A stretch of DNA of 64,000 bases from Desulfurispirillum indicum S5 (GTDB lineage: Bacteria; Chrysiogenota; Chrysiogenetes; Chrysiogenales; Chrysiogenaceae). The position numbers and the translations under genes are program-made. The notes under the pieces were generated by a model. That model saw only the letters and a list, made by a program, of their open reading frames with translations. It made no database searches and was not told where the DNA came from. Location: positions 973,501-1,037,500 of the forward strand of contig NC_014836.1 in NCBI RefSeq assembly GCF_000177635.2, written 5' to 3'. Positions 8,014 through 56,704 of this stretch are shown in pieces. Position 1 is the first letter of the stretch. Every line of letters begins with the position of its first letter.

Positions 8014-8094
8014 GGCAGCTCCTCTCACGGAAAGTTAACGGATGGGGAGGGGTTCAGCAGCCAGCTAACAGCCACTGAAATACCTCAAACCAGG

Positions 8095-8219
8095 CAGGCA
8101 ATTGAAAAACCCTCAGGTGTCAGGCGCTCGCGGAGCGAGGAATGAAGCGTACTCCCCGTACGTTGCAATGACGAGCGACAGCGGGCAACGCCGCAGATGA
8201 GGGTTTTTCAATGGCCTGC
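8095..8219. repeat. intergenic repeat family A, copy 2
   Basis: A copy of the A element in inverse orientation relative to copy 1. It runs from CAGGCAATTGAAAAACCC to GGGTTTTTCAATGGCCTG with the conserved GCAACGCCGCAGATG interior. It fills the gap between rpsU and engB. Confidence 0.8.
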
Positions 8220-8226
8220 TAAGGAA

Positions 8227-16942: not shown

Positions 16943-17179
16943 GTGCTCGGTACTCCTGAAAAAAACTGCGGACCAGACTCTTCACGAGATGCCCGATGGC
17001 CCGTCAAACACCCAGCTCATATACCTGATACAGGGTAATTTTGCAACAAAGGCATCATGTTTGGTTGCCATTGAAGCAATATTCATAGTATTCTCAGAAA
17101 ATTCGGAGGGTATGCGGCAAAATACCGGCAACCCTGCTGAGAAAAACCGGACAGCTTCCTGAAATACTTCAAATTCAGA

Positions 17180-17296
17180 CAGGCAATGGAAAAACCCACA
17201 GGTGCAGGGCGCCAGCGGAGCGAGAAATGAAGCGCACTCCCCGTGAATCACGACAGCGGGCAACGCCGCAGATGGGGGTTTCCAGCAGCCTGCTAT
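17180..17296. repeat. intergenic repeat family A, copy 3
   Basis: An A element with some deletions relative to copy 2 (GGCAATGGAAAAACCC to GGTTTCCAGCAGCCTGCT). It lies just before paaK, in the 370-bp divergent gap 16943-17312. No further feature was recognised in that gap. Confidence 0.75.
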
Positions 17297-17312
17297 AAGG
17301 ATTAACACCGTT

Positions 17313-21279: not shown

Positions 21280-23587
21280 CTTCTGAGCTGCCTGTGCGGC
21301 AGTGAACGAAATACTGGCACCCTGGACCGACTTTTCAATTTTCTGAGCTGCCTATGCGGCAGTGAACGTGTTTTCGCTTGACTCCACCGAATCGGGCGAT
21401 TTCTGAGCTGCCTATGCGGCAGTGAACATGATCTGTAATAGCCCGCAGCGTTTCAGTGCTTTCTGAGCTGCCTATGCGGCAGTGAACCTGATCCAGTCCT
21501 GCCCCTTGCCGGTCACACGTTTCTGAGCTGCCTATGCGGCAGTGAACCACTAACGCCAATAGGCCCTGCTGTATCGTGCTTTCTGAGCTGCCTATGCGGC
21601 AGTGAACCCTCGCCCTGCGCAGCCAGCGCCGGGATATATTTTCTGAGCTGCCTATGCGGCAGTGAACGACCAACGATAGTAGGGAGCTGTTCAGCGATTT
21701 TTCTGAGCTGCCTATGCGGCAGTGAACAACGGAATCTGTAACGCTGATATAGCGCTGCATTTCTGAGCTGCCTATGCGGCAGTGAACTTTGGATGGGCAG
21801 GAGCTGCTGGATGGTTCCTTTTCTGAGCTGCCTATGCGGCAGTGAACATCCCCGAGACATTGGCCGAGGGTGCCCAGGCTTTCTGAGCTGCCTATGCGGC
21901 AGTGAACCACATTACCGACCAGGTCGGCGATACCCGCCATTTCTGAGCTGCCTATGCGGCAGTGAACGGCTCGACAATCCACGCCACAAACTACCGGCTT
22001 TTCTGAGCTGCCTATGCGGCAGTGAACAGAGGGGAGCCTGTTTTGCTGGGACTTGAACTTTTCTGAGCTGCCTATGCGGCAGTGAACGATATTACCATGG
22101 ATGCTGATGATATCGAGCATTTCTGAGCTGCCTATGCGGCAGTGAACCAGTACCAAACCTCCATCGTGCAGCGTTCGCTTTTCTGAGCTGCCTATGCGGC
22201 AGTGAACGCTATCACCCGGAAGTCGCCCAGGTTCCAATCTTTCTGAGCTGCCTATGCGGCAGTGAACTGTCCGCAATGGTATACGAAACCAAGCAGCTCT
22301 TTCTGAGCTGCCTATGCGGCAGTGAACGCTAGCGGCCTGCTGTACGACGAGGATATACATTTCTGAGCTGCCTATGCGGCAGTGAACGGAGCTGCGCCGG
22401 GTGTCGAAATACATACCGATTTCTGAGCTGCCTATGCGGCAGTGAACGACAACGAGTCTTTACGATACCACAATCGGCATTTCTGAGCTGCCTATGCGGC
22501 AGTGAACTGTGCTCTCCCGCTGTCGCTGTCTCAATTCAATTTCTGAGCTGCCTATGCGGCAGTGAACAAATGCCGGGAGTGCAAGGGAAAGGGCAAGGTT
22601 TTCTGAGCTGCCTATGCGGCAGTGAACGTTACCCAGCAGACACCACCCATGTGCCATATTTTCTGAGCTGCCTATGCGGCAGTGAACTCAGCGCCGCGCC
22701 ATTCTGGTACAGGACCTATTTTCTGAGCTGCCTATGCGGCAGTGAACCTATAGGGATCATTCTGGTTCTTCTGTTTCAATTTCTGAGCTGCCTATGCGGC
22801 AGTGAACCTACCGAGATACACCGGACACCTGCGCCAATTTTTCTGAGCTGCCTATGCGGCAGTGAACACTGACACTCGGATTCAGCACAAGATTTTTCAT
22901 TTCTGAGCTGCCTATGCGGCAGTGAACGACGGGAAGGCCATTGACCAGTGCGATATCAATTTCTGAGCTGCCTATGCGGCAGTGAACTTCACCAGGCTGC
23001 CATACACAAGGTTCAATTCTTTCTGAGCTGCCTATGCGGCAGTGAACGGGAGGGTAGGGTGTGGCTGAACCCTCCTTATTTTCTGAGCTGCCTATGCGGC
23101 AGTGAACTCATGGCTATATGATTGCAGATGACGCAAACTTTTCTGAGCTGCCTATGCGGCAGTGAACGATCATCTGCGGCAACGTAGTCATCGCCTTCAT
23201 TTCTGAGCTGCCTATGCGGCAGTGAACGATGACAGCGTACCTGGTGGCGAGTGCGTTCATTTCTGAGCTGCCTATGCGGCAGTGAACATGTACGGGGTTT
23301 CATCTACCGACCAATACCCTTTCTGAGCTGCCTATGCGGCAGTGAACTGAATCTTGGTGTGGCCAAGCTGGAGCCAATTTTTCTGAGCTGCCTATGCGGC
23401 AGTGAACTGGAGCGTCTTCCGACACTGCCAACTTCTTCCTTTCTGAGCTGCCTATGCGGCAGTGAACTTGGTATCCATCGTAAGGGTCGTGGGTGATATT
23501 TTCTGAGCTGCCTATGCGGCAGTGAACCCAATGTGGGTGATTTTTGAGCTTCAGGGGATTTTCTGAGCTGCCTATGCGGCAGTGAAC
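21280..23587 (-). CRISPR. Type I-F CRISPR array, 39 repeats, 38 spacers
   Basis: 28-bp repeats recur exactly every 60 bp, giving 38 spacers of exactly 32 bp. In the transcribed (minus) sense each repeat has the Cas6f hairpin CTGCC-GCATA-GGCAG and ends CTCAGAAA, the 8-nt crRNA handle. All repeats are identical except the one at 21280-21307, which differs at two positions. The degenerate repeat marks the distal end, so the leader lies at 23588 onward, next to cas6f. No two spacers looked alike by eye. Confidence 0.98.
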
Positions 23588-23715: not shown

Positions 23716-24264
23716 TCAAAACCATGGGACCGTGCTTCCGCCTACACTCAACCCGTAAGCCGAATATACACTCTGCTTGCCTGCTTTCTCTGCATTTCTC
23801 TGCTCTATGAAAAGCGGAAATTTTTGTGCAGTAGATGCGCTTAACAGACGAAAAAAAGGCTGGTTAAGCTGGTCTCGAGATTGCAAAAGTTCCAGGGCTC
23901 TTTCTTCAGAGAGTGATCCTCGCTTCAGTGCTCGTCTAATTCTGGAAGCGGTCATCTTAGACTGTACACGCGCTACTTGCACATATGCTGCCTGCGCTGG
24001 CACCTGCAAGATACCTGAAGTTTGTGTATAGTCCTGAAGTCCCGTCAGCCATGAAAGTGTCATGATGCTTTCAAGGGCTGCAAGGCTCCCATGCAAGCGT
24101 AGTAAAGCGCCTGGGGTTTTACCCGCCTCTGGAAAACTGACACCTATATCACTTCTTCCCGATTCCACCAATGCGCGATGGAGTTTTGCAAAGACCGTAC
24201 TCATCAGGGTAGTGGCTTCAAACTCCTGGTCAGGCAGAATACGGATCTCAATATACGAATCCAT
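23716..24264 (-). CDS. cas6f: type I-F crRNA endoribonuclease Cas6f (Csy4)
   Basis: 182-aa RNase that cuts the repeat hairpin and stays bound to the crRNA 3' end. It aligns well with known Csy4: MDSYIEIRILPDQEF start, KLHRALV with catalytic His29, GVSFPE (41-46), the Arg-rich helix RIRRALKRG (108-116), Ser144 in SAST, and the C-terminus YGLSVGG...VPWF. ATG 24264 is chosen because AGGAG lies 7 bases upstream; the open frame to 24300 runs into csy3. It is the last gene of the cas operon and appears intact. Confidence 0.95.
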   Translation of the reverse strand: MDSYIEIRILPDQEFEATTLMSTVFAKLHRALVESGRSDIGVSFPEAGKTPGALLRLHGSLAALESIMTLSWLTGLQDYTQTSGILQVPAQAAYVQVARVQSKMTASRIRRALKRGSLSEERALELLQSRDQLNQPFFRLLSASTAQKFPLFIEQRNAEKAGKQSVYSAYGLSVGGSTVPWF

Positions 24265-24274
24265 AATATGCTCC

Positions 24275-25273
24275 TTAGTCAGCTTTACCAAATACTCCAC
24301 CGCGAATCAGGGTAGCTATGACGTAATGTTGTTGTTTAACATCGGGTGTTTTATCTTTGCCGATCCAATTATCCAGCAGATTATAAAAGTCCATTTTATC
24401 AGTAGGTTGGCGATAGGCTTTGCCACGGTTGGTGACTGAGCCATAGGGTTCAACAGCAATTGGGCCAAGGTCACCGGCATCTGGATACCAGGTGTCAATC
24501 GTGCGAAGTGCATTACCAACTTTCTGCGAGTGAAGCGCCGCCACGCCATCTACTTGATAAAGGACTTTACTCTTGTCGCCTTTACCCTTGTCAAGAATCA
24601 GTTCCTGAGAAGGAAAGACTTCTTGCCCCTGACCCAGTTTCACAAATGCATGAACGGTTAAAAGCACATAACTTTCACTGGTTAATCCCTTTTTTATGAC
24701 TTCTGTCAGGGGATTAAGCCCTGAGTTGTTTGAGCTGAACTGGCGCAGGTTGAAGTCGTGGCTATCGAAAACCCATTCTTGATCCAGATGTTTAATGCGA
24801 ACTTCAACTTGCTCAGCACCAACGCGGTTGCGCCAGAGAAAACGTCCATTCGCGAGATTTTCTGCATAGCGCGAAGCCAACTCACCAAATCCATGCTCCT
24901 CAATGTACTGGTTGATCTTACTTGCGAGTGCTTCTTGGTAATCGGGGTTGTTGCACGCTGAGGGAGTGCTGAGATCACCCAGAATACGCAGCGTGAAGCT
25001 GAGTTTTAGGGTGTCTTTTTCAAAGGGTAGAGCTGCAACGTCAACAATTTGTGGGTTTGGGCTTTCAATTTTTTGGTTTAATTTGGTTGGATCCTGCTCA
25101 TTTGCTGTTTTAAGTCTATTGGATATGGTGCCACGAACCGCTTTTTCCTGAATTTTGATTGCTTCCCAGGAGTTGCTTTGGTCACGCTCATCCCAGTTTC
25201 CGGCATACATCAAGGCATCGGAGTTGGCGAGTTTGCGTTCAAAAGCCAGTACACTTGCTTCTAATTTTGCCAT
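24275..25273 (-). CDS. csy3: type I-F Csy3 (Cas7f) backbone protein
   Basis: 332-aa RAMP protein; six copies normally wrap the spacer part of crRNA in the Csy complex. Typical sequences are the start [20 protein letters not shown], then SALMYAG-like [12 protein letters not shown], the FLWRNR stretch and the C-terminal FYNLLDNWI and GGVFGK region. ATG 25273 has GGAAGG upstream; the open frame to 25360 overlaps csy2 and is not needed. Intact, lying between csy2 and cas6f. Confidence 0.95.
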
Positions 25274-25310
25274 GGTGGTTTCCTTCCTTTTGGTGTTGTC
25301 AGGCTGTCTA

Positions 25311-26297
25311 TTAAATAGGTGCTTCGGGTTGGTAGTGATTAATACCCAGATAACAGTCATCTTTTTGGTAATAACGCCAGATCAGGTATTCCAGTTTATT
25401 GATGCGGTGAGGGCTGAGCCATTGGCCAATGCCGTAGGCTGATTCAACAAAGCGAAAAGGCACTGAGGGGTCGCGTGTGTGAGCCACCTCGCCAGGTTCG
25501 TAGAGTGGTGAAATGGACTGATAGCCGGTCATAATCGGTACCAGCCAGCCTTCAGCAGGTTTGGGCTGCAGCTCCCAGATGGCTGGGGTCTTTTCCGTCA
25601 GCTCTTCAGAATCCGGGTCAGGCTGGGCCTGGTACTTTAAGGCAGCAAAGTCCAGCCAGGCATCCAGAAGCTCTGCCTCTGGATGCTGCTCTTTAAGCTG
25701 TTGGAAATGTTCTGTCAGCAGTTCGCTGCGGTCAACCAGAGCAAAACCGGGCAGTAGTTTGAGTAGCTTTTTGCGCGTCCACTTCTGTTGATCTTCAGTT
25801 GTTTCCGGCAGGGTCTCAAAACGAACCTCTTGAATGCTTTGAATGATTCCGCCTGCCAATCGAAGGGTCAGTAGTTTTTCCTGAATCTGTCGTGAAAAGA
25901 GTTCTGCATCCTCGTCTGGGTTTCCTGTGTTGAAGTTAAGCTTTTTGGGCCTGAAATCGCATTCTATCAGGAGGCTGACTTCCAGATGCATTTTGCCTTC
26001 TTCATTGAAAGGAGGGGTAGTCCACTTATCTTTATTTTTTTTGTCTTGGACTAAAGGATTGCGGGTGAGTCCGAAGACATACTCCCCTCTGCCCCCAGGT
26101 TGATAGGCCTTGACCTGATGCCAATGGCAAATCACGCCGCAGCCACCCAAAGACACTCCTTGCCTCTCTTGTGTGAAGCGAGACAGGGCATGGGTTAAGC
26201 CCAGAAAGTTGGTGATGGCGGGAAAACCCCAGGTCATACCTGAGATTGCATTGGCATTTTCTATGCGCAGGCGTTTCAATATCAGCAGGGACTTCAT
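25311..26297 (-). CDS. csy2: type I-F Csy2 (Cas5f)
   Basis: 328-aa Cas5-like protein that caps the 5' handle of crRNA with Csy1. The start [38 protein letters not shown] and [12 protein letters not shown] are typical. The C-terminus [14 protein letters not shown] is also conserved. The ATG at 26297 overlaps the csy1 stop (26294-26296), showing that the two were coupled; with csy1 interrupted, csy2 translation may suffer. Otherwise intact. Confidence 0.94.
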
Positions 26298-26536: not shown

Positions 26537-26595
26537 TAAAGTGGGCCCAGTTGTCCAGACATATTTCGAGGAAGTTTAAGTTTTCTTATTGCAGC

Positions 26596-27408
26596 CTATG
26601 CCGCAAGCTTTTCCTCCTTTATTCTAAATACTGACATGTACATTTTGTCTGGTGTTCTGTAGTCAAGAGACTGATGAAACCTTCTGCTATTGTAGAAGGT
26701 GAAGTATCGCTTTACTCCTTCCTTGAGTTCGGTCATGTTCTCATAGCATTTGATATAGATGTTTTCGTATTTCACACTGCGCCAAAGGCGCTCTACGTAG
26801 ACATTGTCAAGGGCTCTGCCTTTGCCGTCCATGCTGATTCTGATGCCGTGACTCTTGAGTCTTTGCGTAAATGCCTCTGAGCTATATTGGCTTCCCTGGT
26901 CGGTGTTGAATATCCCAGGGACTCCATAGCGTCTGATGGCTTCATCCAGTGCTTCGAGGCAAAAGCAGGTATCCATGGTGTTGGAGATGCGCCAGCTCAG
27001 TACTTTGCGGCTGAACAGATCTATGATAGCTGTCAGGTACACCGTCTTGGCGCCAAGCTTCAAGTACGTGATATCAGTGGCCCAAACCTGGTTGGGAAGC
27101 CAGATATTCAATCCTCGCAGCAAGTACGGATACTTCTTGTGCTGCTTGTTGGCCCGTGAAAGATTGGGTTTGGGGTAAATCGCACGCAGCCCATGCTTGT
27201 GCATAATGCGCCGCACCTGTTTGGAACTCACGGCCATATCATGTTCCTCATTGAGCTGTATGGCTATCTTGCGATAACCGAAGGTGGGAATGTCTTGCAG
27301 CACCCTGAGAACAACCTTCAGTATTTCAAGATCAGATTCCTCCAGCGCCGACGAACGTGACTGGTAATAGTAGGTCGAGTGGCTGATGCCAAGCAACTTG
27401 CACTGCAT
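26596..27408 (-). CDS. IS3-family transposase OrfB (copy 1)
   Basis: 270-aa DDE integrase-like transposase. The catalytic residues sit in WATDITYL, FNTDQGSQYSS and NVYVERLWRS. An HTH_21-type region (IPTFGYRKI) precedes the rve core. The frame is open upstream through the A9 run at the end of orfA, so the active product is probably an OrfAB fusion made by -1 frameshifting rather than free OrfB. Confidence 0.93.
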   Translation of the reverse strand: MQCKLLGISHSTYYYQSRSSALEESDLEILKVVLRVLQDIPTFGYRKIAIQLNEEHDMAVSSKQVRRIMHKHGLRAIYPKPNLSRANKQHKKYPYLLRGLNIWLPNQVWATDITYLKLGAKTVYLTAIIDLFSRKVLSWRISNTMDTCFCLEALDEAIRRYGVPGIFNTDQGSQYSSEAFTQRLKSHGIRISMDGKGRALDNVYVERLWRSVKYENIYIKCYENMTELKEGVKRYFTFYNSRRFHQSLDYRTPDKMYMSVFRIKEEKLAA

Positions 27409-27437
27409 CCGTATGCTCAGGTTTTTATGGCCTGGCT

Positions 27438-27755
27438 CTATGGCATTTTTGGCTCGTGACCGTAGAGTTGCACATACTTTTTTTTTAGGAAGTCCTTCTC
27501 AACCTGAAGCATGCCAATTTGCTTGTAAAGGGCGTCAACATTGCGATCCTCTTTGTCCTTGCCCTTCTTCTTGTTGGGACGATCGAATATATCAGGCATG
27601 GCTTCCAGAGCACGCTTCTTCCACTCCTTGATCTGCTGGGGATGAACCTCATACTCCTGAGCCAGCTCCTGAACAGTCTTTTCTTCACGCAGCGCCTCAA
27701 GGGCTACCTTGGCTTTGAACTCATTGGTAAATGTCTTACGTTGCACTATAGTCAC
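27438..27755 (-). CDS. IS3-family transposase OrfA (copy 1)
   Basis: 105-aa helix-turn-helix protein ([20 protein letters not shown], then [15 protein letters not shown]) with a coiled-coil end. It binds the IS ends. Nine consecutive A residues near the 3' end form a slippery site joining it to OrfB. Confidence 0.93.
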
Positions 27756-27847
27756 TCTCCAGGTGATGTTTGGATCAGGTCAATCTACGCCACTTCCGAT
27801 GACTTTGCCAAACTTAAACCCCTGTCCGATTTACTGGGCCCATTATA

Positions 27848-28948
27848 GAGCTGTTCAGCAAAAGGTAAATCAGAATCAAGGCTCCAGCCTGCGTTCTTTT
27901 TTTTGCTTTGAATTTCAGCAGCCAGTTGGAGGAGCTGGTCAATCAGGTCATCCACAAGCTGTTCTCGTTTCTGTCGAATAGCCAGCGTGCTACTGCGTTG
28001 AAAGCTGATGGCTAAATGCTTTTGCAGGCGTTTGGTCAGCGACCAGGTGCGGTGCGTCAACTCTTTCCAGAAAGCTTCCTGCCCTTTTCGGGGCAAAAAG
28101 TCTTGAGCTGTCCAAGAGGGCGGCTGGCAGGATAAAAGGTAGCCCTTACCATAGCGTTGTGTGTTGAGCTGCGAAATATTCTGAGGTTTGGTGCCACCAA
28201 AGGCCTGGACAGCCAGGTTGGGAAAAAACACTAGGGTTTGAGGGTCGTAAAGTCCTTTCTCGCGCGCTTTACGGGCTCTTTTGGTTTCATCAGAAAAGAA
28301 GGCTGAGGTGATTTTCTGATGAAGCTGATGTGCAAGGGAACTGGCATAAAGCGGGCTGATCAAGTGGTAGTTGCTATTTCCTAATGGAAAATAGACTTGC
28401 TTGGTCAACTGGCCGGACTGAACCTGTTTATCCTGAAGTGCTGCCTTGAAGCCTTCCAGCCACTCCTGGTACTGCTCATCAGTTTGACTCAAAGCTTCAA
28501 GGGTTGGGCTCTGGCCCTTGGCAATTTCATCTAGCAGCATGACTCCATTGGCTTCTAGCTTTAAAAGTATGGCGACATAAAATACTGCGGCATTGCCAAC
28601 AAAGTCAACTTCTAAACCAGAGACGGAAGCTGAGGTTAGGTAGTTATTTTTTTGGAGCTTTGCTGATTCTTCTGAAAAAAGAACTCCCGAACTACGAGTG
28701 TCTGAGTGGGTGTATTTGGCTGCATGAGTCGCTCTGCTGATCTGTTTAGCTCGTTTAGATGCATCAGTAAGCCAGTTTTCAGGTTTGATCAATTTATTGC
28801 GCATGGCTTGCAATTGTTCCAGCTGGTCTTGGTCGGCTACGGCTCTGGCTTTTTCCACTTCCTTGTCGTTTAATTCCAATTTGTCACTCAGCCGGTTACT
28901 GATGTAATCAAGAACCTTATCAGCCAGTGTTGTTTCCTGCTCTTGCAT
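27848..28948 (-). pseudogene. csy1: csy1 (Cas8f) N-terminal fragment
   Basis: Encodes the first 367 residues of Csy1, the large subunit that recognises the PAM with Csy2. It begins MQEQETTLADKVLDYISNRL with RBS AAGGAG and stops being Csy1 at DLPFAEQL, where the IS begins. Joining 28948-27848 to 26533-26294 (one GAG kept) gives 1341 nt, exactly 447 codons, and restores AEQLWLDP. The frame runs on into the IS, adding about 20 foreign residues. Some function of the truncated protein is unlikely because the C-terminal helical bundle is lost. Confidence 0.93.
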
Positions 28949-28962
28949 GGAAGTACTCCTTG

Positions 28963-29341
28963 TTATTTAAGTTCTTGGTGGACACCCAGCAGAGGGTGGT
29001 AATGCCACTGCTCATCAGCTCTTAAGCGAATTTGCATAAACCTTTTGCAGATGGTAGCGACCTCCTCATCCTGCCTTTCTGCTTGCTCATTGATTAAATT
29101 CTGGGGGTCCGTCATGATCCAGGGCTGAATGCGGTCAGCCAATTGTACATCAACATGCTGAAAGCGCTGGTCTTGACTAACGGGTTCCTGTCCAGGTTGC
29201 CAGGAATGAAATTTCAACTCCTCCAGTTCGTCTTCCTGGTACAACAGCAGTAATTCATCTGGGCTGCTTTTACGAAAGGGTGTGCGACGTTGGAATTCAT
29301 AGCTCCAGGTCGGATTCTTCTGCCACCAGAGGGCTGCATAT
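28963..29341 (-). pseudogene. cas3: cas3 (Cas2-3 fusion) C-terminal fragment
   Basis: Encodes the last 125 or so residues of type I-F Cas3, read as YAALWWQKNPTWSYEFQRRT to the end FMQIRLRADEQWHYHPLLGV. It stops 14 bases before csy1. It is separated from the helicase part by IS3 copy 2. The TAT at 29339-29341 is one copy of the target duplication. Confidence 0.9.
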
Positions 29342-29433
29342 TATAATGGGCCCAGTAAATCGGACAGGGGTTTAAGTTTGGCAAAGTCATCGGAAGTGGC
29401 GTAGATTGACCTGATCCAAACATCACCTGGAGA

Positions 29434-29751
29434 GTGACTATAGTGCAACGTAAGACATTTACCAATGAGTTCAAAGCCAAGGTAGCCCTTGAGGCGCTGC
29501 GTGAAGAAAAGACTGTTCAGGAGCTGGCTCAGGAGTATGAGGTTCATCCCCAGCAGATCAAGGAGTGGAAGAAGCGTGCTCTGGAAGCCATGCCTGATAT
29601 ATTCGATCGTCCCAACAAGAAGAAGGGCAAGGACAAAGAGGATCGCAATGTTGACGCCCTTTACAAGCAAATTGGCATGCTTCAGGTTGAGAAGGACTTC
29701 CTAAAAAAAAAGTATGTGCAACTCTACGGTCACGAGCCAAAAATGCCATAG
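29434..29751 (+). CDS. IS3-family transposase OrfA (copy 2)
   Basis: 105-aa product identical to the copy 1 OrfA. The A9 slippery run is at 29703-29711, and orfB lies in the -1 frame relative to orfA. Confidence 0.93.
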
Positions 29752-29780
29752 AGCCAGGCCATAAAAACCTGAGCATACGG

Positions 29781-30593
29781 ATGCAGTGCAAGTTGCTTGG
29801 CATCAGCCACTCGACCTACTATTACCAGTCACGTTCGTCGGCGCTGGAGGAATCTGATCTTGAAATACTGAAGGTTGTTCTCAGGGTGCTGCAAGACATT
29901 CCCACCTTCGGTTATCGCAAGATAGCCATACAGCTCAATGAGGAACATGATATGGCCGTGAGTTCCAAACAGGTGCGGCGCATTATGCACAAGCATGGGC
30001 TGCGTGCGATTTACCCCAAACCCAATCTTTCACGGGCCAACAAGCAGCACAAGAAGTATCCGTACTTGCTGCGAGGATTGAATATCTGGCTTCCCAACCA
30101 GGTTTGGGCCACTGATATCACGTACTTGAAGCTTGGCGCCAAGACGGTGTACCTGACAGCTATCATAGATCTGTTCAGCCGCAAAGTACTGAGCTGGCGC
30201 ATCTCCAACACCATGGATACCTGCTTTTGCCTCGAAGCACTGGATGAAGCCATCAGACGCTATGGAGTCCCTGGGATATTCAACACCGACCAGGGAAGCC
30301 AATATAGCTCAGAGGCATTTACGCAAAGACTCAAGAGTCACGGCATCAGAATCAGCATGGACGGCAAAGGCAGAGCCCTTGACAATGTCTACGTAGAGCG
30401 CCTTTGGCGCAGTGTGAAATACGAAAACATCTATATCAAATGCTATGAGAACATGACCGAACTCAAGGAAGGAGTAAAGCGATACTTCACCTTCTACAAT
30501 AGCAGAAGGTTTCATCAGTCTCTTGACTACAGAACACCAGACAAAATGTACATGTCAGTATTTAGAATAAAGGAGGAAAAGCTTGCGGCATAG
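29781..30593 (+). CDS. IS3-family transposase OrfB (copy 2)
   Basis: 270-aa DDE transposase identical to the copy 1 product. Its frame has no stop between the A9 run and ATG 29781, which supports production as an OrfAB fusion. Confidence 0.93.
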   Translation: MQCKLLGISHSTYYYQSRSSALEESDLEILKVVLRVLQDIPTFGYRKIAIQLNEEHDMAVSSKQVRRIMHKHGLRAIYPKPNLSRANKQHKKYPYLLRGLNIWLPNQVWATDITYLKLGAKTVYLTAIIDLFSRKVLSWRISNTMDTCFCLEALDEAIRRYGVPGIFNTDQGSQYSSEAFTQRLKSHGIRISMDGKGRALDNVYVERLWRSVKYENIYIKCYENMTELKEGVKRYFTFYNSRRFHQSLDYRTPDKMYMSVFRIKEEKLAA

Positions 30594-30652
30594 GCTGCAA
30601 TAAGAAAACTTAAACTTCCTCGAAATATGTCTGGACAACTGGGCCCACTTTA

Positions 30653-32121
30653 TATTCAGCCTGTTTCTCTGAACCAAAGAGCTTGGCAGCCAAGTGTTCG
30701 TGCTCCAGGTCAACGAGATTACTGGCTGGAGTGTGGTTTTTTCGGCGCAAGAGCCTTGGTGTGGCATTGATATGCTTGTATTGACTTTCTTCCAGAATAA
30801 CTTCCAAGTCATGAGATAACAATGGGAAGTCTTGTGATTCAAAGCCGGGTTTCGAGTAAGCCGGTTTTTTGTTTTGCAGGGCTTTAAAGTTCTTTCTGGG
30901 TATAAGCAGGTTAGGGTGCTGCGGTGCATTTTGCCGATGGCGTTGAATGCGACCTGCCAACTGGATGAGTGAGCGCATGGAGCTGGGTTCAGCAATGGCC
31001 CAGTCATAGTCATGATCACGCCCCACTTCTGTAACTGCCGAACCGAGAACAATGAAGATATGTTGGGTTTCATTGCCTTGCTTCAGGGCATCGGCAATCA
31101 TCGGGTTTTCCCAGACTTTTTCAGGCTCATTGCGGTTAAGAATTTCATCCAGAAACTTTTCAATGCGTGAACGTATCAATAGCGGGTATTGGCCATGATA
31201 GACACAAAAGTGCAATCTATAGTTCTCAGGCAGAGGTTTTGCGAAGAGCTTTTGTGCTACGGCAACCAAGGGGTTGATGTTGGCCATGCGAATCAACCCA
31301 AAGGAAACCTCTTTGCCTGCAGCCTTTCCACCAGAAGGTTGCTTGTGCTGGTCATGTAATTCAAGCAGCGCCCGCTGGAAAGAATCTGCCAAACTTTGTG
31401 CCACCTTTTCCGAAGAGAGGGACTCACTGCTGACATCCAGGAGCTGACCCCAGCGCAAGGGTGCTTCTTTTTGCTGTTTTTTTACCAGTTCCTTAATTCT
31501 GCTTGTGACAAAGTCATTATGAGCTACCGCAAAATCCTGCTCATTACTTAGAGTATGGCTGGTTGAATTAAATTCATCAAACCAAGCACAGGGAATAACA
31601 TTGGATTGTTCTGATGGTTCGCCCCTGGCTTGCAGATAGCTGCATCTACCTGCCTTATAGGCAGAAAACAGAGCTTCAACCAATGATGGTGGCAAAGTGG
31701 CCGAAGAAAGCAGCACACGTGAGCCTAACAGACCTGCCCAGTGAACAAGCCGACAAAGTGCAGGCAGGTCTTCCAATCCAAAATCATCCGGCTCATCCAG
31801 TACCAGGTCAGAAGTCATTAGGCGCAGCATGGGCGCAATTTGGCGCCCACCTCTTGCTCCCTCAGTTGCGGGCATGAGATAATCAATGGTACTGATCAGC
31901 ACCGGCGCACTGACCAGTTGCAGGAGTTTTGGGCTGGCTTTTAACCAATTTGATACGTTTTCATCCAGCAGACCCTCATAGTGGACATGCAAGTCTGGAT
32001 CAATCATGTCCTGGGCTGACTCGCTACCTGTTTTCTCCAAAACAGATATAGGTTTTTTGGGATTTTCTGGGTCATGTTTTCCCTGATCATAAAGCTCTTT
32101 TACTGCTTGGGAACCGACTAA
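30653..32121 (-). pseudogene. cas3: cas3 middle fragment (helicase domain)
   Basis: About 489 codons of the Cas3 SF2 helicase. DEAD-like motif II LVLDEPDDFGLED, motif III LLSSATLP and C-terminal RecA motif VI AGRIQRHRQ are visible. It is bounded by IS3 copy 2 on one side and the IS5-family element on the other. A start codon at 32133 lies in the IS, so any product would lack the Cas2, HD and Walker A parts. Confidence 0.92.
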
Positions 32122-32204
32122 GAGCTTGTCCATAAATAATCATTGACCATCATGATAGTTTGCTATAGAATGATTCAGTGAGAGATCATTCATGGCGGTG
32201 ATTT

Positions 32205-32693
32205 ATGTCTAAAGTGCAATCATGGGAAGTCTCAGATGCTTTCTGGCAAAGAGTTGAGCCTTTGCTGCCAATCCAGCAAAGAGATCTTGACAAGGTCTAC
32301 AAGCGCAAGCCTGGTGGTGGGCGCAAGCGACTTAACCCCAGGAAGGCGTTTTCCGGCATTGTCTATGTTCTGCGCACCGGTTGTCAGTGGAAAGCGATAC
32401 CCAAGGAGCAGTTTGGTTGCGCCAGTGCCGTGCACAAGTACTTCATTGAGTGGAGTAAGGCCGGTGTATTCGAAGCTATTTGGCGTCAAGGGCTGGCTGA
32501 GTACGACGAGATGGAGGGAATTGCCTGGGAGTGGCAAAGCATAGATGGCGGAATGTACAAAGCACCAATGGCTCTTGAAACCGTAGGGAAGAACCCGACG
32601 GATCGGGGAAAAAAACGGGAGCAAGCGTCATGTCCTGGTGGACGGTCGTGGCGTCCCGTTGTCCATCGTCGTAACCGGAGCGAACCGGCATGA
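32205..32693 (+). CDS. IS5-family transposase, N-terminal frame
   Basis: 162-aa frame with the DUF4096-like N-terminus (SDAFWQRVEPLLP, GGGRKRLNPRKAFSGIVYVL) and the first catalytic Asp in QSIDGGMYKAP. True homology ends at NPTDRGKK, beside an A7 run (32609-32615); the rest is out of frame. It overlaps the second frame, to which it must be joined by frameshifting, or the A7 run carries a 1-base indel. Confidence 0.85.
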   Translation: MSKVQSWEVSDAFWQRVEPLLPIQQRDLDKVYKRKPGGGRKRLNPRKAFSGIVYVLRTGCQWKAIPKEQFGCASAVHKYFIEWSKAGVFEAIWRQGLAEYDEMEGIAWEWQSIDGGMYKAPMALETVGKNPTDRGKKREQASCPGGRSWRPVVHRRNRSEPA

Positions 32694-33042
32694 TGTGAGC
32701 CAGCTTGAAGCTGTTCTTGATGGCGTAGTCTTCGAGAAGCCTGCAGAGCAGGAGCAGCATCTTTGCGCAGATTGTGGCTACAAGGGAAAGCAGGCGCTCA
32801 GCAGCATTCTTCAGCGCGGATACATACCCCATGTAAAGCAGCGAAAAGAAGAGATCGAGGACAAGAAGCGTGACCCATCAAAGAAGGCGAGGCGCTGGAT
32901 AGTGGAAGCATCTATTTCCTGGTTCAACCGTTTCAGGAAGATTCATGTGCGCTTTGAGAAGCTTGAGGTCACTCACTACGGGTTGACGTGTCTTGCGGCA
33001 GCCATAATCACATACAGGAAAATCGGCGTAATTTATGGATAA
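32638..33042 (+). CDS. IS5-family transposase, C-terminal frame
   Basis: 134-aa frame continuing the transposase: LVDGRGVPLSIVVTGANRHD with the second Asp, and RRWIVEASISWFNRFRKI with the catalytic Glu. The homologous sequence begins a little upstream of this ATG (GSKRHVLVDG), so it is the second half of one protein. Confidence 0.85.
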   Translation: MDGRGVPLSIVVTGANRHDVSQLEAVLDGVVFEKPAEQEQHLCADCGYKGKQALSSILQRGYIPHVKQRKEEIEDKKRDPSKKARRWIVEASISWFNRFRKIHVRFEKLEVTHYGLTCLAAAIITYRKIGVIYG

Positions 33043-33046
33043 GTTC

Positions 33047-34510
33047 TAAGGTTGCCAGATCCTCTTTGTCTAGTCTCAGTTTTTCTTTGAAAGCATCACC
33101 TGTTTGCAGGGTAAGGGTTCTCAGTCCCAGGGCTACATTGAAGCGGCAGCCACGTTTCTCATTAGCAAGTCCATACATGATGCTTGCATTGGCAAAGGTT
33201 TTCCCACATCCCGTTGAAGCCAGATTGATACCAAAAAAACCCTGCTTTTCTGAACGAGGGCCAAGACTTTTTGCCAGATCATAGGCTTTGTCCTGCCAGC
33301 GAAAGCGGTTCAAGGTGACTCGTTTACTCAAGGCTTTAACACGGGTGATGGCAGGGAGTTGTTTGGAAAGATCAGGGAGTCGGCGTGCCAGAAGGTAAGC
33401 ATGGTGAGCCACTCCCAGATTATGCTCATCCAACTTTTGCTTGAGTTGTTCTGTTTTGCGGTCTGTATTAGCATGGGCTTTATAAGATTTGTCTTGCCAA
33501 GCTGCTGTAGGCTGGCTGGCTGAATAAATATGGTCAGCCAAAGTTAACACCATTCTGGCAAGGTGACTGGTATAGAGATCGCTTAAGCCAGGATGACTTT
33601 TCAAGCTGTTGGCTTTCAGTGCTCTTTTTGCCAAACTGCAAGCCTTGCTACGCCAAATCTTACTGCGCAGAGGAGTACCATGTGGGAAGTCCCACACACC
33701 TTGCCATTCTACTGGTCCCCAGTCACTCCGATAAAGCTGGGGTGAATTCCAACCAGCATTGAAGTCATCAGTCAGCCATTCATCTATTTCATCAAGATAA
33801 GGAACAATCTGGGCGTGATCTTTAGGGAATACGGGTAGTCGATGATGGCTGACGATCAACCAGGCAACAGTTAACGCCAGAGGCTGGTGTTGAGCCAATT
33901 TCTTCAAAGGGGCTTTGGGGCGAACACTAATGTCTTTTTCAAGTTTCTCCAGCAGATCTTGTTCCATTTCAGGTGAAACCAAGTTGAGCTTTTCTAGCCA
34001 CTCCATGTCTTCCAGGTCATCAATAAAGGCCATAAAGAGGCGCAAAGAAATCCATTCATGTCTTAGGGGTTCACTCAGTGGTTTTTTCTTCTTTTTGGGG
34101 TTGAGCTTGTCCTGAAAACGTTTATTGGCTTTACCAAAATCATGGAATAGTCCCGCAATAGATGCCAGTAAAGCTAAGGCATCGAGGGTGTTCCAATCAT
34201 TTTCATCCTCTCTGCGCAGAATATCGCGACTGGTAATGTTTGTTGGCACTGCTCCTTCACTGTTGAACTGACTGGCATCACCGACAATCCACATAAGCTC
34301 GCTGTGATTGCGACCCCGAATCCAGTGGCAGGCAACGGCAGTATTGCGTCGGGCTTTTTTCCGCAACATGCGGCGCAGGGTCTCAAGTCCCTGCATGGTT
34401 ATAGCCGTCTGCCAGGTGCGATCCCCTTTGCGCTCGGCAAACTGGTCAAGGATGCGCCGTGTCTCAACAAGCGCATTTTTGCTGCACTGGGATACAATCA
34501 AAACATTCAT
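33047..34510 (-). pseudogene. cas3: cas3 (Cas2-3 fusion) N-terminal fragment
   Basis: 488 codons of type I-F Cas2-3. It begins with a Cas2 domain (MNVLIVSQCSKNALVETRRI, residues 1 to about 90), then the HD nuclease (LFHDFGKANKRFQ, SHHRLPVFP) and Walker A NLASTGCGKTFAN (about residue 440). The IS5 element cuts it at DLATL. Joining 34510-33047, 32118-30653 and 29338-28963 gives 3306 nt, exactly 1102 codons. The Cas2 domain could still be made as part of a truncated protein, so adaptation might survive. Confidence 0.93.
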
Positions 34511-35484
34511 GTAGTTCCCTTGCCTTCTTGAGTGGCTATCATTTTGACGGTATCAATCATGAAATCGAGCGCTTCATGCTGGGTGAGTGTTTCAATACAT
34601 GCCTGCCGAAATTCCTGCTCACTATGCCCCTGCATGGCAGAAAGAAAAGCCTGGGGTAATATCATGGCATCTTTAATCAAATCCGCGATATCAAATACCA
34701 ATCCACCACGTCGCGTTTTTCCATGTAAAACGGCAAGGCCATGGGGAAGCCCCAATACCCAGGCTGCGGTTGCCCCCAGACCGTAGGCCAGATAGTTTCC
34801 ATGATCCAGAAAACGATTGGCGGGATCACTTCCACTGCCTTTTTTTGCTCGTATAAATTCACCATAGTCTGTGGTATTGGCTGCAATTTTAAAGAGTTCC
34901 TTGGTGAGTCTTGCCTCTTGAGTCAGGAGTGAGTTTGTATCGGGGGCCTTATCAATACTTGCATCGGCCTTATCAAGAGCTCTTTTCAATGACTCTCCAT
35001 CCGGTGAAAACCCAGCCTGTTCCAACTGACGATTTTTCAGCCAGTGTTTCTTTATGCGGTCAATCCTGGTGTGTTGAATTATTTTGGCTGCTTCAAGGCG
35101 TTTAGCATCATCAAACCAAAAGCTAACCCAGGCCTGAAGATACTCAGTTGGCCGATACTCGCTTTGAGGACAGAACCACGCCACTTCAATATCCATTTCA
35201 TTGGCACTGAAAAGAGGGGTACCACCGCCACCGCAAAACCCGACAAGCACACCAGCCTTGGAAAGTTCACGCATCGCTGCCTGTGTGATAGACGTGCCAG
35301 TGCTCAGCAGCAGGGTTGTGGTGTTGGCAATGGGGATATTCCAGTACATGGAGCGTTTACCAGCGTCCGTCACATATTCGACTCGCCCACCGTTAACGAG
35401 AACTCGACAGTGCTCCAACAAGTAGATATTTGCCCGTTTTGAGTGAAGAATACTCTTCAAGTCTGTAGGAGAAATCTGATCCAT
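34507..35484 (-). CDS. cas1: type I-F integrase Cas1
   Basis: 325-aa spacer-integration nuclease. Metal-binding residues are Glu190 (TQEARLTKELF), His254 (VLHGKTRRGG), Asp265 and Asp268 (VFDIADLIKD), matching the positions known for I-F Cas1. The protein is full length. It overlaps cas3 by 4 bases. In I-F it works with Cas2-3, here broken. The DnaQ-like gene ends 1 base upstream of its start. Confidence 0.96.
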   Translation of the reverse strand: MDQISPTDLKSILHSKRANIYLLEHCRVLVNGGRVEYVTDAGKRSMYWNIPIANTTTLLLSTGTSITQAAMRELSKAGVLVGFCGGGGTPLFSANEMDIEVAWFCPQSEYRPTEYLQAWVSFWFDDAKRLEAAKIIQHTRIDRIKKHWLKNRQLEQAGFSPDGESLKRALDKADASIDKAPDTNSLLTQEARLTKELFKIAANTTDYGEFIRAKKGSGSDPANRFLDHGNYLAYGLGATAAWVLGLPHGLAVLHGKTRRGGLVFDIADLIKDAMILPQAFLSAMQGHSEQEFRQACIETLTQHEALDFMIDTVKMIATQEGKGTT

Positions 35485-35485
35485 T

Positions 35486-35995
35486 CTATTCCCTCCTCAT
35501 CTCCTCCCACACCATAGCTGTCAGGCGAGCATCGCCCAGAGCACGGTGGAGCTGTATTTCCGGTGGCAGCTTGCCCAGCACATGCTGGGCAAGGTACTCC
35601 AGTTTATGGTTTGGGAGCCGTGGGTATTTCCTGCGGCCAAGTCTGAGGGTGCAGTGGCTGGGATTTGCCATGGACAGCCCCAGTCGCTGCAGTTCACTAT
35701 GGACAAACCTCATGTCAAACGGTGCATTGTGGGCCACAATGGGGTGATGTTCAATGAACCATATAAATTGCGGCCAGATTTCCCCTGGCGCGGGTTGCCC
35801 TGCCAGCATCGCGGTGGTAATGCCATGTACGCCAGTGGTTGCGGCAGAAACTGGCACGCCAACCTGTATAAGGCTGCAGAACTCGGCAATCACTTGCCCT
35901 TGCTCCATCTTCACAGCGGCTATTTCGATCACCCGCGCCCCTCTGGCGGGTGAAAGTCCTGTGGTTTCCACATCAATGGCGACAAATGTGTTCAT
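35486..35995 (-). CDS. DnaQ-like DEDDh 3'-5' exonuclease
   Basis: 169-aa exonuclease domain protein with a full DEDDh set: Asp8 and Glu10 (AIDVETTGL), Asp94 (HNAPFDMRF), His150 and Asp155 (HRALGDARLT). It is the size of a bare epsilon-like domain, with no polymerase-binding or other domain. It ends 1 base before cas1 and starts the operon, so it should be co-transcribed with the cas genes. DnaQ-family exonucleases trim prespacers in other CRISPR types, so a role in spacer acquisition is a reasonable inference. Confidence 0.85.
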   Translation of the reverse strand: MNTFVAIDVETTGLSPARGARVIEIAAVKMEQGQVIAEFCSLIQVGVPVSAATTGVHGITTAMLAGQPAPGEIWPQFIWFIEHHPIVAHNAPFDMRFVHSELQRLGLSMANPSHCTLRLGRRKYPRLPNHKLEYLAQHVLGKLPPEIQLHRALGDARLTAMVWEEMRRE

Positions 35996-36087
35996 ATGAA
36001 GATCATCCTACCACACTCACTCTGACAAAACCTGTCATACTGCTTTTTAATCCGCTATAACTCTCCACAGTATATGCAGCCAGGGAT

Positions 36088-36247
36088 CTTCGCACCTGCT
36101 TGCGGGGCTGCCATCCCGTCGCTTCGCGCCACCCCTCCAGGGGAGGGGAATAGGGGCTTCGGTGAGGTGTTGCCTTTTCATAAATCTGCGCAAATCTACC
36201 GTCTATCTGCGGAAAAAAATACGGTTGTTTGATCTTTCCCCCTAACA
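36088..36247. repeat. repeat family E, copy 1 (direct repeat left of the HTH/NTase pair)
   Basis: About 150 bp: GGGATCTTCGCACC, CCACCCCTCCAGGGGAGGGG, then ATCTGCGCAAATCTRCCGTC-like and a TTTCCCCCTA end. A direct copy lies at 37288-37455. The 36000-36368 gap otherwise holds only the promoter and operator of the next gene. Confidence 0.7.
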
Positions 36248-36368: not shown

Positions 36369-36698
36369 ATGCTTGAAGCAATTTTTGGTGCAGCTTCCAA
36401 AGAAAAGGTACTGCTTTTCCTCCTTATCCGAAAAAGTGGTTATGCGCGGGAAATTTGTACGTTCTTCGGTTTGTCACTCAGTGCAGTTCAAAAGACACTG
36501 GAAAACCTGGAGCTTGGTGGTGTTCTGATCTCTCGTAGTGTCGGACGCACACGAGTATTTGAACTGAATCCTCGATATGCGTTTCTGAATGAGCTTGAAA
36601 ACCTTCTTGCCAAAGCTTTTGAATATTACCCGGCAGCAGAACGCGAACGCCTCACAATGGTGAGAGCACGCCCAAGACGCAAAGGCAAGCCACTATGA
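36369..36698 (+). CDS. winged-helix DNA-binding protein, putative antitoxin/repressor
   Basis: 109-aa basic protein with an ArsR/MarR-like winged helix: GYAREICTFFGLSLSAVQKT (about residues 24-43, recognition helix) and VLISRSVGRTRVFELNP (wing). The tail is basic (RARPRRKGKP). GGAGG precedes the start. It overlaps the nucleotidyltransferase-like gene by 4 bases. The pair resembles HTH/NTase toxin-antitoxin or AbiE-like modules, with this as the DNA-binding partner. Confidence 0.75.
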   Translation: MLEAIFGAASKEKVLLFLLIRKSGYAREICTFFGLSLSAVQKTLENLELGGVLISRSVGRTRVFELNPRYAFLNELENLLAKAFEYYPAAERERLTMVRARPRRKGKPL

Positions 36699-37237
36699 AG
36701 CCTGTGGCAGAGATGTCTGCGCTTGAACTGAGTGCGTGGGTGTGTGATGCCCTGTATCGTCAGGGTATAGAAGTCGTACTCTCCGGTGGTGCCTGCGTGA
36801 TGATTTACGCCGAAAACAAGTACATGTCGTATGATATTGACCTTATTGACTGCTATATTACCCCACGGAAGAAACTGCGTAGCGTCATGGAAAGCCTGGG
36901 ATTCAGTGAACATCATCGCTATTTTGTGCACAACGAGTCACCATACCTCATCGAATTCCCTGCTGGTCCCCTGGGAATCGGGGATGAAAATATCACCGAT
37001 GTGTATGCGATAGACACTCCATTGGGACAACTTCGACTTTTATCGCCCACTGATTGTGTCAAAGACCGTCTGGCCGCCTTCTACCACTGGGGTGACCTGC
37101 AAAGCCTTGAGCAAGCACTGCTGGTTGCCATGGCAAAAGAAATTGACCTTGAAAATGTGCACTATTGGTCAGCCAGAGAAGGTTGCAGTGAACAATATAT
37201 ACAATTTACGAATGAGCTTAAGCGTCGTCAACAGTGA
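36695..37237 (+). CDS. nucleotidyltransferase-like protein (putative toxin)
   Basis: 180 aa with a minimal nucleotidyltransferase signature: VVLSGGACVMIYAE (about residues 27-40, GG/GS-type loop) followed by YDIDLID (about 47-53, metal-binding Asp pair), and the AbiEii-like LLSPTDCVKDRLAAFYHW (about 116-133). It is translationally coupled to the winged-helix gene. The cassette is flanked by family E direct repeats, which suggests gain as a unit. Toxicity is inferred from family and layout only. Confidence 0.72.
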   Translation: MKPVAEMSALELSAWVCDALYRQGIEVVLSGGACVMIYAENKYMSYDIDLIDCYITPRKKLRSVMESLGFSEHHRYFVHNESPYLIEFPAGPLGIGDENITDVYAIDTPLGQLRLLSPTDCVKDRLAAFYHWGDLQSLEQALLVAMAKEIDLENVHYWSAREGCSEQYIQFTNELKRRQQ

Positions 37238-37287
37238 AGCCACGAGTAGTTCTCGTCACAACTACTCATGGCTTTCAGCACAAAGGG

Positions 37288-37455
37288 ATCTTCGCACCGG
37301 CTTGCGGGCCTACCACCCCGTCGCTTCGTGCCACCCCTCCAGGGGAGGGGAAGAGGGTCTGCGGTGAGATGTTGACTTATCAAAAATCTGCGCAAATCTG
37401 CGTCCATCTGAAGAAAAGAATTCGGCTTCGCTTTGGCAATAGCTTTTCCCCCTAC
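37288..37455. repeat. repeat family E, copy 2
   Basis: A direct copy of the repeat at 36088, with GGGATCTTCGCACC, CCACCCCTCCAGGGGAGGGG and AAATCTGCGCAAATCTGCGT, ending TTTTCCCCCTAC. It lies right after the NTase gene and before the WYL regulator's end. Confidence 0.7.
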
Positions 37456-37472: not shown

Positions 37473-38438
37473 CTACTCGCTCTCACCCACCATCTTTTTT
37501 GCTTCTGCCAGGATCATGTCCCGCAGTTCCACGGGTTCAAGGACTTCCACTTCGGCTCCATAGGAGAGCACGCGCATTTTGATTTCGCGCAGGTCGGCGA
37601 CGGGGAAGCTGAGTTCCACGGCTCCGCATGTTTCTTCGCGCATGGTCTGGGCGGGGTGCCACTGCTGTTCGCGTATCCAGCGGCTGGTTTCGGGGCTGAA
37701 GCGCAGGCGCACGGCAGTTGTAAGCTTGCCCTGAAAGAGTCCATAGGCGTGGTTGACCAGCGATTGCCACTGCTCGGCGGGGCGGGGCAAAAAGGTTTCA
37801 GGTTCCATGCGGGCGCTGGTCATGCGGGCCAGGTGAAACTGTCGCCACTGATGGCGCAGGCGGCACCAGGCGACGAGTATCCAGGCGCCATGGTAGTGGA
37901 AGAGGTGGTGGGGTTCGATGGTGCGGGTGGTGTGCTGGTTATCCTGGGGCGAGTGGTAGTCGATGCTCAGCGTTCGGCTCAGGAGCAGGGAGTGGGTGGC
38001 AGCGTTGAAGGTGTCGGGGTTGCAGGGGGCCAGGCTGGTGTACTGGCTGGAAAAGAGGTTGCGCAGCTGTTGGGGGTTGAGGGGGTGGATGCTGTTTTCC
38101 CGGAAGAGTCGGGTTTCAAAGGCGGCCAGGGCGCGGCTGGCGTGGCCTGCGGTGGCGGATTCCAGCATATTGCGGGCGATGAGCCAGCACAGAAGTTCGT
38201 TCTGGCTGAGCCACAGGGGCGGGAGTTGGTAGCTGTGATCGGTGTAGGAATAGCCTTTGTGCTGGTGGTCGTATTCCAGGGGCGCGCCGAAGCGGTCGCG
38301 GATGGTTTCAATGCGCCTTTGGGCGGTGCGGGTGGAAATTTCAAACTGTGCGGCCAGGGTGGTGGCGTTGGGATAGGCTCGTTGCCGGGTTTGCTGGTGA
38401 AACCAGCAGTAGTGTTCCAGTGCGCGGGTGTCGGACAT
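37473..38438 (-). CDS. WYL-domain transcriptional regulator
   Basis: 321 aa with an N-terminal DeoR-like HTH (NATTLAAQFEISTRTAQRRI, about residues 24-43), a WYL-domain ligand-binding middle (HHLFHYHGAWILVAWCRLRHQ, about 172-192) and the WCX C-terminal region (PVADLREIKMRVLSYGAEVEVLEP). WYL proteins often control defence, DNA damage or phage-related genes. ATG 38438 has AGGGG 6 bases upstream; the open frame to 38483 is not needed. Target unknown. Confidence 0.88.
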   Translation of the reverse strand: MSDTRALEHYCWFHQQTRQRAYPNATTLAAQFEISTRTAQRRIETIRDRFGAPLEYDHQHKGYSYTDHSYQLPPLWLSQNELLCWLIARNMLESATAGHASRALAAFETRLFRENSIHPLNPQQLRNLFSSQYTSLAPCNPDTFNAATHSLLLSRTLSIDYHSPQDNQHTTRTIEPHHLFHYHGAWILVAWCRLRHQWRQFHLARMTSARMEPETFLPRPAEQWQSLVNHAYGLFQGKLTTAVRLRFSPETSRWIREQQWHPAQTMREETCGAVELSFPVADLREIKMRVLSYGAEVEVLEPVELRDMILAEAKKMVGESE

Positions 38439-38592
38439 GGCTGCCCCTTGCTGGTACATGGGTGAACAAAATGGGACGCGCAATACGGTTCACATTTGAC
38501 CGTACTTTGCCGGAGATTGCAAGGCGGAATGTCCGTCGTTACTTCCAGGCCTTGACCTGCCCGATTTTCCCTGTTATAAACGCCCAATCATA

Positions 38593-51257: not shown

Positions 51258-51293
51258 AACGTCAGCCAGCAGAGATTCTCGTTTTCGCCTGTG

Positions 51294-51416
51294 GCAATGG
51301 AAAACCCACAGGTGCAAGGCGCCCGCAGAGCAAGGAGTGGCGAGCACTGCCTGTACTGTCACAACGGGCGGTGGCGGGCAAGCCGCAGATGGGGATTTTT
51401 CAGCAGCCTGCTAAGA
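51294..51416. repeat. intergenic repeat family A, copy 4
   Basis: A diverged A element (AATGGAAAACCCACAGGTGC to GGATTTTTCAGCAGCCTGCT) in the leader between the predicted promoter and the Rrf2 gene. It would therefore be transcribed. Confidence 0.75.
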
Positions 51417-56578: not shown

Positions 56579-56704
56579 CAGGCTTCTGAAAAACCCCCAT
56601 CTGCGGCGTTGCTCGCAGTCGCTCGTCATTGCAACGTACAGGGAGTACGCTTCATTCCTCACTCCGCGAGCGCCTTGCACCTGAGCATTTTTCAATTGCC
56701 TGCT
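56577..56704. repeat. intergenic repeat family A, copy 5
   Basis: An A element beginning at the sbp stop codon (GCAGGCTTCTGAAAAACCC to TTTTTCAATTGCCTGCT), in the same orientation as copy 1. It is followed directly by a B element. Confidence 0.8.

Follow-up and report, generated by a model that had tools for sequence, protein, structure and literature searches.

When a DnaQ-like exonuclease gene immediately precedes a type I-F cas1, does it belong to that CRISPR-Cas system (CRISPR, clustered regularly interspaced short palindromic repeats), and does its product help to acquire spacers? This question is raised by a locus of Desulfurispirillum indicum S5, located in the 64,000-nucleotide stretch analyzed here (contig NC_014836.1, forward-strand positions 973,501 to 1,037,500; hereafter the window). 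A sequence-only reading of this DNA had proposed that the gene, here called dnaQ, is fixed in front of the I-F cas1 and may encode a built-in trimmer of prespacers. Our analysis points to a different arrangement, in which dnaQ and an upstream gene for a WYL-domain regulator appear to be a resident pair, with cas cassettes exchanged behind it.

The dnaQ gene (35486..35995, minus strand) encodes a protein of 169 amino acid residues (aa), which matched Pfam RNase_T over its whole length (106.8 bits). It contains the complete DEDDh set (Asp8, Glu10, Asp94, His150, and Asp155), none of which varies among 23 aligned homologues. The AlphaFold2 model of the protein reached a predicted local distance difference test score (pLDDT) of 96.1 and a predicted template modeling score (pTM) of 0.91, and the closest solved folds were the PolC exonuclease, the S. 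thermophilus DnaQ domain, and E. coli epsilon (template modeling scores, TM, of 0.87–0.91). By sequence and model, the protein is classified as a DEDDh DnaQ-like exonuclease of the RNase_T superfamily with the RNase H-like exonuclease fold, and a 3'-5' nuclease activity is predicted. The intact DEDDh exonuclease of the sequence-only reading was thus borne out by sequence, alignment, and fold model. The protein fell short of the equivalog models for the epsilon subunit of DNA polymerase III (Pol III), with 92 bits for dnaQ_proteo (cut-off 222.7 bits) and 87 bits for PRK05711 (cut-off 196), and it stops right after the nuclease domain, lacking the alpha-binding C-terminal region of epsilon. Nor is it a Cas2-DEDDh fusion, as dnaQ is a separate open reading frame (ORF) and the Cas2 domain of the window is fused to Cas3. 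The PADLOC DEDDh profile PDLC01247 scored 126 bits; we rejected this match as a sign of CRISPR specialization because housekeeping DnaQs score as high.

The I-F integrase gene cas1f (34507..35484, minus strand; TIGR03637 516 bits) is intact and begins one nucleotide downstream of dnaQ, as had been claimed. At the junction, ...GAG ATG AGG AGG GAA TAG A ATG..., a single base (A) stands between the dnaQ stop and the cas1 ATG, and the Shine-Dalgarno sequence of cas1 (AGGAGG) lies inside the final dnaQ codons. Because of this spacing and the location of the cas1 ribosome site within dnaQ, the sequence suggests that the two genes are translationally coupled. The claim that dnaQ heads the cas operon held in part: it stands directly before cas1, but it is not the first CRISPR-linked gene, since a regulator gene with helix-turn-helix (HTH_11), WYL, and WCX domains (37473..38483, minus strand) lies upstream on the same strand.

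The one-base spacing and the intact active site would suit a dedicated prespacer trimmer built into this type I-F system. A vacancy for one exists, as the nuclease that trims the protospacer-adjacent motif (PAM) before full-site integration is missing from the known I-F parts and was stated to be unidentified (PMC12259127). The surveys of I-F loci stand against this explanation. Loci were collected with TIGR03637 from the organism's own phylum, 399 Pseudomonadota genomes, 321 genomes of one Pseudomonadota class, IMG/VR, plasmids, and phages. Besides the window, 68 I-F cas1 loci were read; three had fewer than 350 bases upstream, leaving about 65 informative loci (7 in the own phylum and about 58 in Pseudomonadota and viral sequences). 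When the upstream regions were scanned with a DnaQ profile built for this analysis, no comparable dnaQ was found before cas1 in these informative loci, and none of 23 plasmid I-F loci had dnaQ adjoining cas1. The single profile match upstream of another I-F cas1, in genome G875 (L206), proved to be the canonical gene for Pol III epsilon, next to rnhA (TIGR01406 313 bits; epsilon profiles 313–344), so it was rejected as a second dnaQ-WYL-cas1f case. There, a housekeeping rnhA-dnaQ pair directly upstream of WYL-cas1f (L206:2654-5954) is a chance neighbor that mimics the window arrangement. Because the surveyed I-F loci lack such a gene, dnaQ is not a general component of type I-F; the own-phylum, Pseudomonadota, plasmid, phage, and IMG/VR surveys all rejected an I-F-wide association. 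The sequence-only reading was therefore right to place dnaQ outside the standard I-F set. Its view of a gene fixed in front of I-F cas1 failed: the co-occurrence search that it had itself proposed found the adjacency in this genome only, an outcome it had listed as contrary to its proposal.

The relatives carry the gene in front of a different subtype. The family sample comprises three genomes, namely that of the window, G001, and G002. The dnaQ homologue is 59% identical to the window's in G001 and 87% in G002, and the comparison with G002 indicates purifying selection (nonsynonymous divergence, dN, 0.074; synonymous divergence, dS, 0.357). In both relatives, dnaQ lies directly behind the same WYL gene as in the window and directly before a cas operon. 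Hence, the WYL-dnaQ pair precedes a co-oriented cas operon in all three family genomes, once of type I-F and twice of type I-E. Beyond WYL, dnaQ, and the cas genes, no flanking genes are common to the three loci, which lie in three chromosomal surroundings. Throughout the family, dnaQ is thus linked to CRISPR and not to a housekeeping neighborhood. The two I-E operons have the order cas3, cse1, cse2, cas6e, cas7, cas5, a Bro-N gene, cas1e, and cas2e, followed by an array with a 61-bp period. They are truly of type I-E (Cas1e 386 bits, Cse1 above cut-off), and their Cas2e (104 aa) carries no DnaQ fusion. In 20 Pseudomonadota I-E loci, some of them cut by contig ends, neither such a dnaQ nor such a WYL gene was found nearby (0/20), and a general I-E association of either gene was rejected on this basis.

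The cas genes and the pair in front of them have diverged to very different degrees. When G001 is set against G002, the products of cas3, cse2, cas6e, cas7, and cas5 are 91–99% identical, compared to 58% for dnaQ and 56% for WYL, and a housekeeping comparison gene of the two relatives is 74–81% identical to the window's. By these identities, the I-E cassette moved between lineages independently of dnaQ. Two details of the I-E cassettes are recorded here. The cse1 (cas8e) gene is just 59% identical between cassettes whose cas3, cse2, cas6e, and cas7 are 96–99% identical (L020:7277-8881 vs L022:12535-14109), and it may have been either swapped alone or much faster evolving. The Bro-N gene, which is phage antirepressor-like, lies between cas5e and cas1e in both relatives (L020:3564-4394 and L022:16992-17816).

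The exchange can be placed on the sequence. Nucleotide homology between the window and G002 ends at position 35497, at the 3' end of dnaQ, giving a cassette-exchange boundary at 35485..35497 (minus strand); it is at this end of dnaQ that homology breaks off in both between-genome comparisons. In G002, the dnaQ reading frame now reads on into the beginning of cas3. The dnaQ stop of G001 is closely followed by two degenerate I-E repeats with a spacing of 61 bp; the best has 23/29 matches (shuffles ≤19) and the second is weaker (16/29). I-F repeats were looked for in G001 and G002, and none remain.

Composition changes at the same place. The GC content at third codon positions (GC3) is 0.73–0.81 in native genes, 0.77 in WYL, 0.61 in dnaQ, and 0.44–0.53 in the I-F cas genes, so that the step falls between dnaQ and cas1. 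The cas1f gene is closest to Pseudomonadota I-F cas1 (72–75% identity) and less similar to that of the own phylum (60–68%), and the Pseudomonadota loci with the closest cas1f have no such dnaQ. The I-F cassette, compositionally foreign and most like Pseudomonadota, is thus an import, and WYL and dnaQ are older residents. Composition and identity show that dnaQ and the I-F cassette have had separate histories, and their joint arrival was rejected. CRISPR loci with a stand-alone DEDDh gene have been described before; what appears to be new is a fixed WYL-dnaQ pair with I-F and I-E cassettes exchanged where dnaQ ends. No report of a fixed WYL-dnaQ pair with cassette exchange was found in the literature searched, with most subscription papers outside its reach.

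These results largely refute a trimmer dedicated to the I-F system of this genome. About 65 I-F loci do without the gene, the same gene accompanies type I-E in the relatives, the I-F cassette beside dnaQ is compositionally foreign, and the I-F system is itself broken by insertions (described below). The corresponding proposal of the sequence-only reading was not borne out, and we consider it very improbable.

What, then, might the exonuclease do? Precedent comes from type I-E integrases, where DEDDh nucleases trim 3' overhangs and the PAM as a Cas2-DEDDh fusion (PMC10284694), and where DnaQ and ExoT acting in trans are the proposed 3' trimmers of prespacers (PMC8616872). The 3'-overhang structure of prespacers is common to I-E and I-F (PMC6787059), and the bound I-F Cas1-2/3 complex has a channel of sufficient width to admit a nuclease (PMC12259127). 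Stand-alone DEDDh genes are ancillary and widespread in every CRISPR type (PMC10284694). We propose that the WYL-dnaQ pair is resident in the family and that imported cas cassettes are placed and swapped immediately downstream of it, of type I-F here and of type I-E in the other two genomes. DnaQ would trim the 3' overhangs of prespacers, PAM end included, while these are held by whichever Cas1-Cas2 integrase is encoded alongside. Trimming would resemble that by host DnaQ/ExoT in trans, or by the Cas2-DEDDh fusion in cis in type I-E. The WYL regulator, encoded first in the operon, would control expression, and WYL, dnaQ, and the cas genes would be co-transcribed. A subtype-independent 3'-end trimmer is the simplest reading because the DEDDh gene is apparently coupled to cas1 and stands ahead of I-E operons in the relatives; we hold the chances for and against it to be evenly balanced. 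A role of DnaQ in adaptation is inferred. The more far-reaching version, in which WYL-DnaQ is a subtype-independent adaptation front end, with complete cassettes swapped behind it and translationally coupled to it, that supplies PAM trimming to type I-F, is tentative, and we think it rather unlikely.

Known systems resemble this arrangement in part. The Cas2-DEDDh fusions of type I-E (Megasphaera; S. thermophilus) have the same fold and DEDDh residues and are tied to a Cas1-Cas2 locus (PMC10284694), whereas the window nuclease is separate, lies next to an I-F cas1, and has no linker to Cas2. Its sequence scores higher against the PolC exonuclease (91 bits) than against Cas2-DEDDh (48 bits). 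The stand-alone DEDDh genes of PADLOC PDLC01247 are, like the window dnaQ, free-standing beside cas genes, but the pairing with WYL and the subtype exchange are specific to this family. E. coli DnaQ and ExoT, which act in trans, belong to the same nuclease superfamily; their genes are unlinked housekeeping genes, whereas the window dnaQ heads a cas operon. The Pol III epsilon subunit and the rsmA-linked DnaQ of Deferribacterota have the DEDDh domain in common with the window protein (33–39% identity). The latter differs from them in having no C-terminal tail, in scoring far under the epsilon cut-off, and in its gene neighborhood. The WYL regulators of CRISPR-Cas (e.g., Sll7009 for I-D) are likewise HTH-WYL-WCX proteins whose genes precede cas genes in the same orientation, with the difference that the window WYL is separated from cas by dnaQ.

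Several observations weigh against subtype-independent trimming. The number of family genomes, three, is small. Spacer length did not DISCRIMINATE: it gave no discrimination between arrays with and without dnaQ. The intervals were 60 bp in 38/38 cases here and in about 373/400 in I-F arrays without dnaQ, several of which were fully uniform (pooled by hand). Uniform spacer length was accordingly rejected as a trimming footprint, as I-F arrays without dnaQ are about as uniform. Furthermore, the DnaQ proteins of the sister families are encoded in a housekeeping operon, pdxA-rsmA-dnaQ-accD (names assigned by eye from the flanking ORFs), and they and the window DnaQ are reciprocal best matches (35–39% identity, 97–108 bits). 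A tree that unites the family clade with this housekeeping DnaQ was not rejected (approximately unbiased, AU, test p 0.31). Finally, the flanks of the 80 closest homologues from outside the family, as far as they were read, contained neither a CRISPR array nor cas genes of type I-E or I-F.

These points lend weight to a plainer explanation, in which the protein is an ordinary DnaQ exonuclease of the family for proofreading or repair, possibly the relocated rsmA-linked dnaQ of the phylum, with no role in immunity, and the 3' end of its gene is a landing or recombination site for cassettes. Because the joined tree is not rejected and the best match is reciprocal, an origin by relocation of a housekeeping gene is possible. 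The other DEDDh proteins of the genome reached at most about 61 bits, compared to the 97–108 bits of the sister-family DnaQ, and a first broad scan for homologues returned only general DnaQs, with up to 46% identity. A bystander would also fit the composition of dnaQ, which leans native, its divergence in step with WYL and not with the cas genes, the equal scores of housekeeping DnaQs against the general PADLOC DEDDh profile, and the G875 locus, where a Pol III epsilon gene lies near WYL-cas1f by chance. Opposed to this, the best tree sets the three family DnaQs, which form one clade (support 100/99), apart from the housekeeping clade of the sister families, and the protein lacks the epsilon C-terminal extension. 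Moreover, dnaQ stands before cas operons of two subtypes in three chromosomal surroundings, and never with conserved non-CRISPR neighbors of its own. We regard a bystander as the main alternative and a serious possibility, though short of an even chance.

The WYL gene offers a further alternative. As predicted sensors of ligands, WYL domains regulate defense systems (PMC4012209), and WYL-dnaQ may be a defense or regulatory unit of its own, in which the exonuclease would degrade foreign or damaged DNA and WYL would sense the products and activate the defense operon that follows. The conservation of the pair over three genera would agree with this. So would the finding that, of the 68 other I-F cas1 loci, 16 have a gene for a WYL regulator homologous to the window's upstream of cas1 and in the same orientation (L121, L133, L139, L142, L143, L144, L179, L182, L185-L189, L194, L196, and L208). 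Such a unit is nevertheless improbable in our estimation, as no such pair occurred elsewhere among the loci read. The frequency of 16/68 makes I-F regulation by such WYL proteins plausible, and they are a recurrent candidate for an I-F regulator. The window WYL shares 26–34% identity with the WYL proteins encoded next to cas1 in other I-F loci. It was rejected as a gene of this I-F cassette because WYL is ~30% identical where cas1f is ~74% identical, a difference from which we infer that the window WYL did not travel with the cassette.

The region between WYL and dnaQ contains a cassette of two genes, encoding 109 and 180 aa (36369..37237, plus strand), which the relative G002 does not have. 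A 116-bp direct repeat stands on either side of the cassette (36082-36197 and 37284-37399, 90% identical), and the homology between the window and G002 breaks off and restarts within these repeats; therefore, the cassette is an insertion that G002 lacks. Its proteins are AbiE-like in appearance, yet no family scored above cut-off; PADLOC PDC-M05A gave 35 bits for the 109-aa protein. The window also has at least five copies of a dispersed, ~150-bp intergenic repeat (1529-1679, 8076-8222, 17151-17305, 51293-51414, and 56572-56703), which is found in the WYL-dnaQ gap of G002 as well (L020:12355-12518).

The I-F locus behind the pair runs on the minus strand in the order dnaQ, cas1, cas2/3, csy1, csy2, csy3, csy4, and array. 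Every gene and the array are present, with two insertions in cas2/3 and one in csy1, all missed by the sequence-only reading. The 5' part of cas2/3 (33041..34510, minus strand), with the Cas2 and HD domains, is broken after about residue 487 by an insertion sequence (IS) element that is IS5-like (32134..33042, plus strand; boundaries approximate), with its transposase in two overlapping frames (ORFs 32205-33042). The middle, helicase part (30653..32133, minus strand) is followed by an IS3-family element of 1311 bp (29342..30652, plus strand), which is an identical inverted copy of 26537-27847, and by the 3' part of cas2/3 (28963..29341, minus strand). The csy1 (cas8f) gene (27848..28948, minus strand) has its 3' end cut by the other 1311-bp IS3-family copy (26537..27847, minus strand), which sits between two parts of csy1. 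Between these two identical, opposite-facing copies lie the 3' end of cas2/3 and most of csy1. Further downstream lie csy2 (cas5f, 25311..26297), csy3 (cas7f, 24275..25360), and csy4 (cas6f, 23716..24300), all on the minus strand, and the type I-F array (21280..23587, minus strand), which has 38 perfect repeats, one degenerate end repeat, and a period of 60 bp throughout with 32-bp spacers. The system has worked formerly. Given the insertions in cas2/3 and csy1, interference is very probably lost at present and adaptation is probably impaired. A second, distant Cas1 homologue (346-aa frame) is present elsewhere in the genome (G000:C1:1129537-1130154), with a counterpart in G002 (C9:53455), and marks a further CRISPR or Cas1-like locus.

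With dnaQ one base before an I-F cas1, this locus supplies a concrete candidate to add to the Cas1-Cas2/3 reaction. Should DnaQ do nothing there, the locus would stand as a clear warning against inferring function from adjacency to cas genes. If DnaQ also serves I-E integrases, trimmers would be interchangeable across subtypes and able to stay in place when the cas cassettes change.

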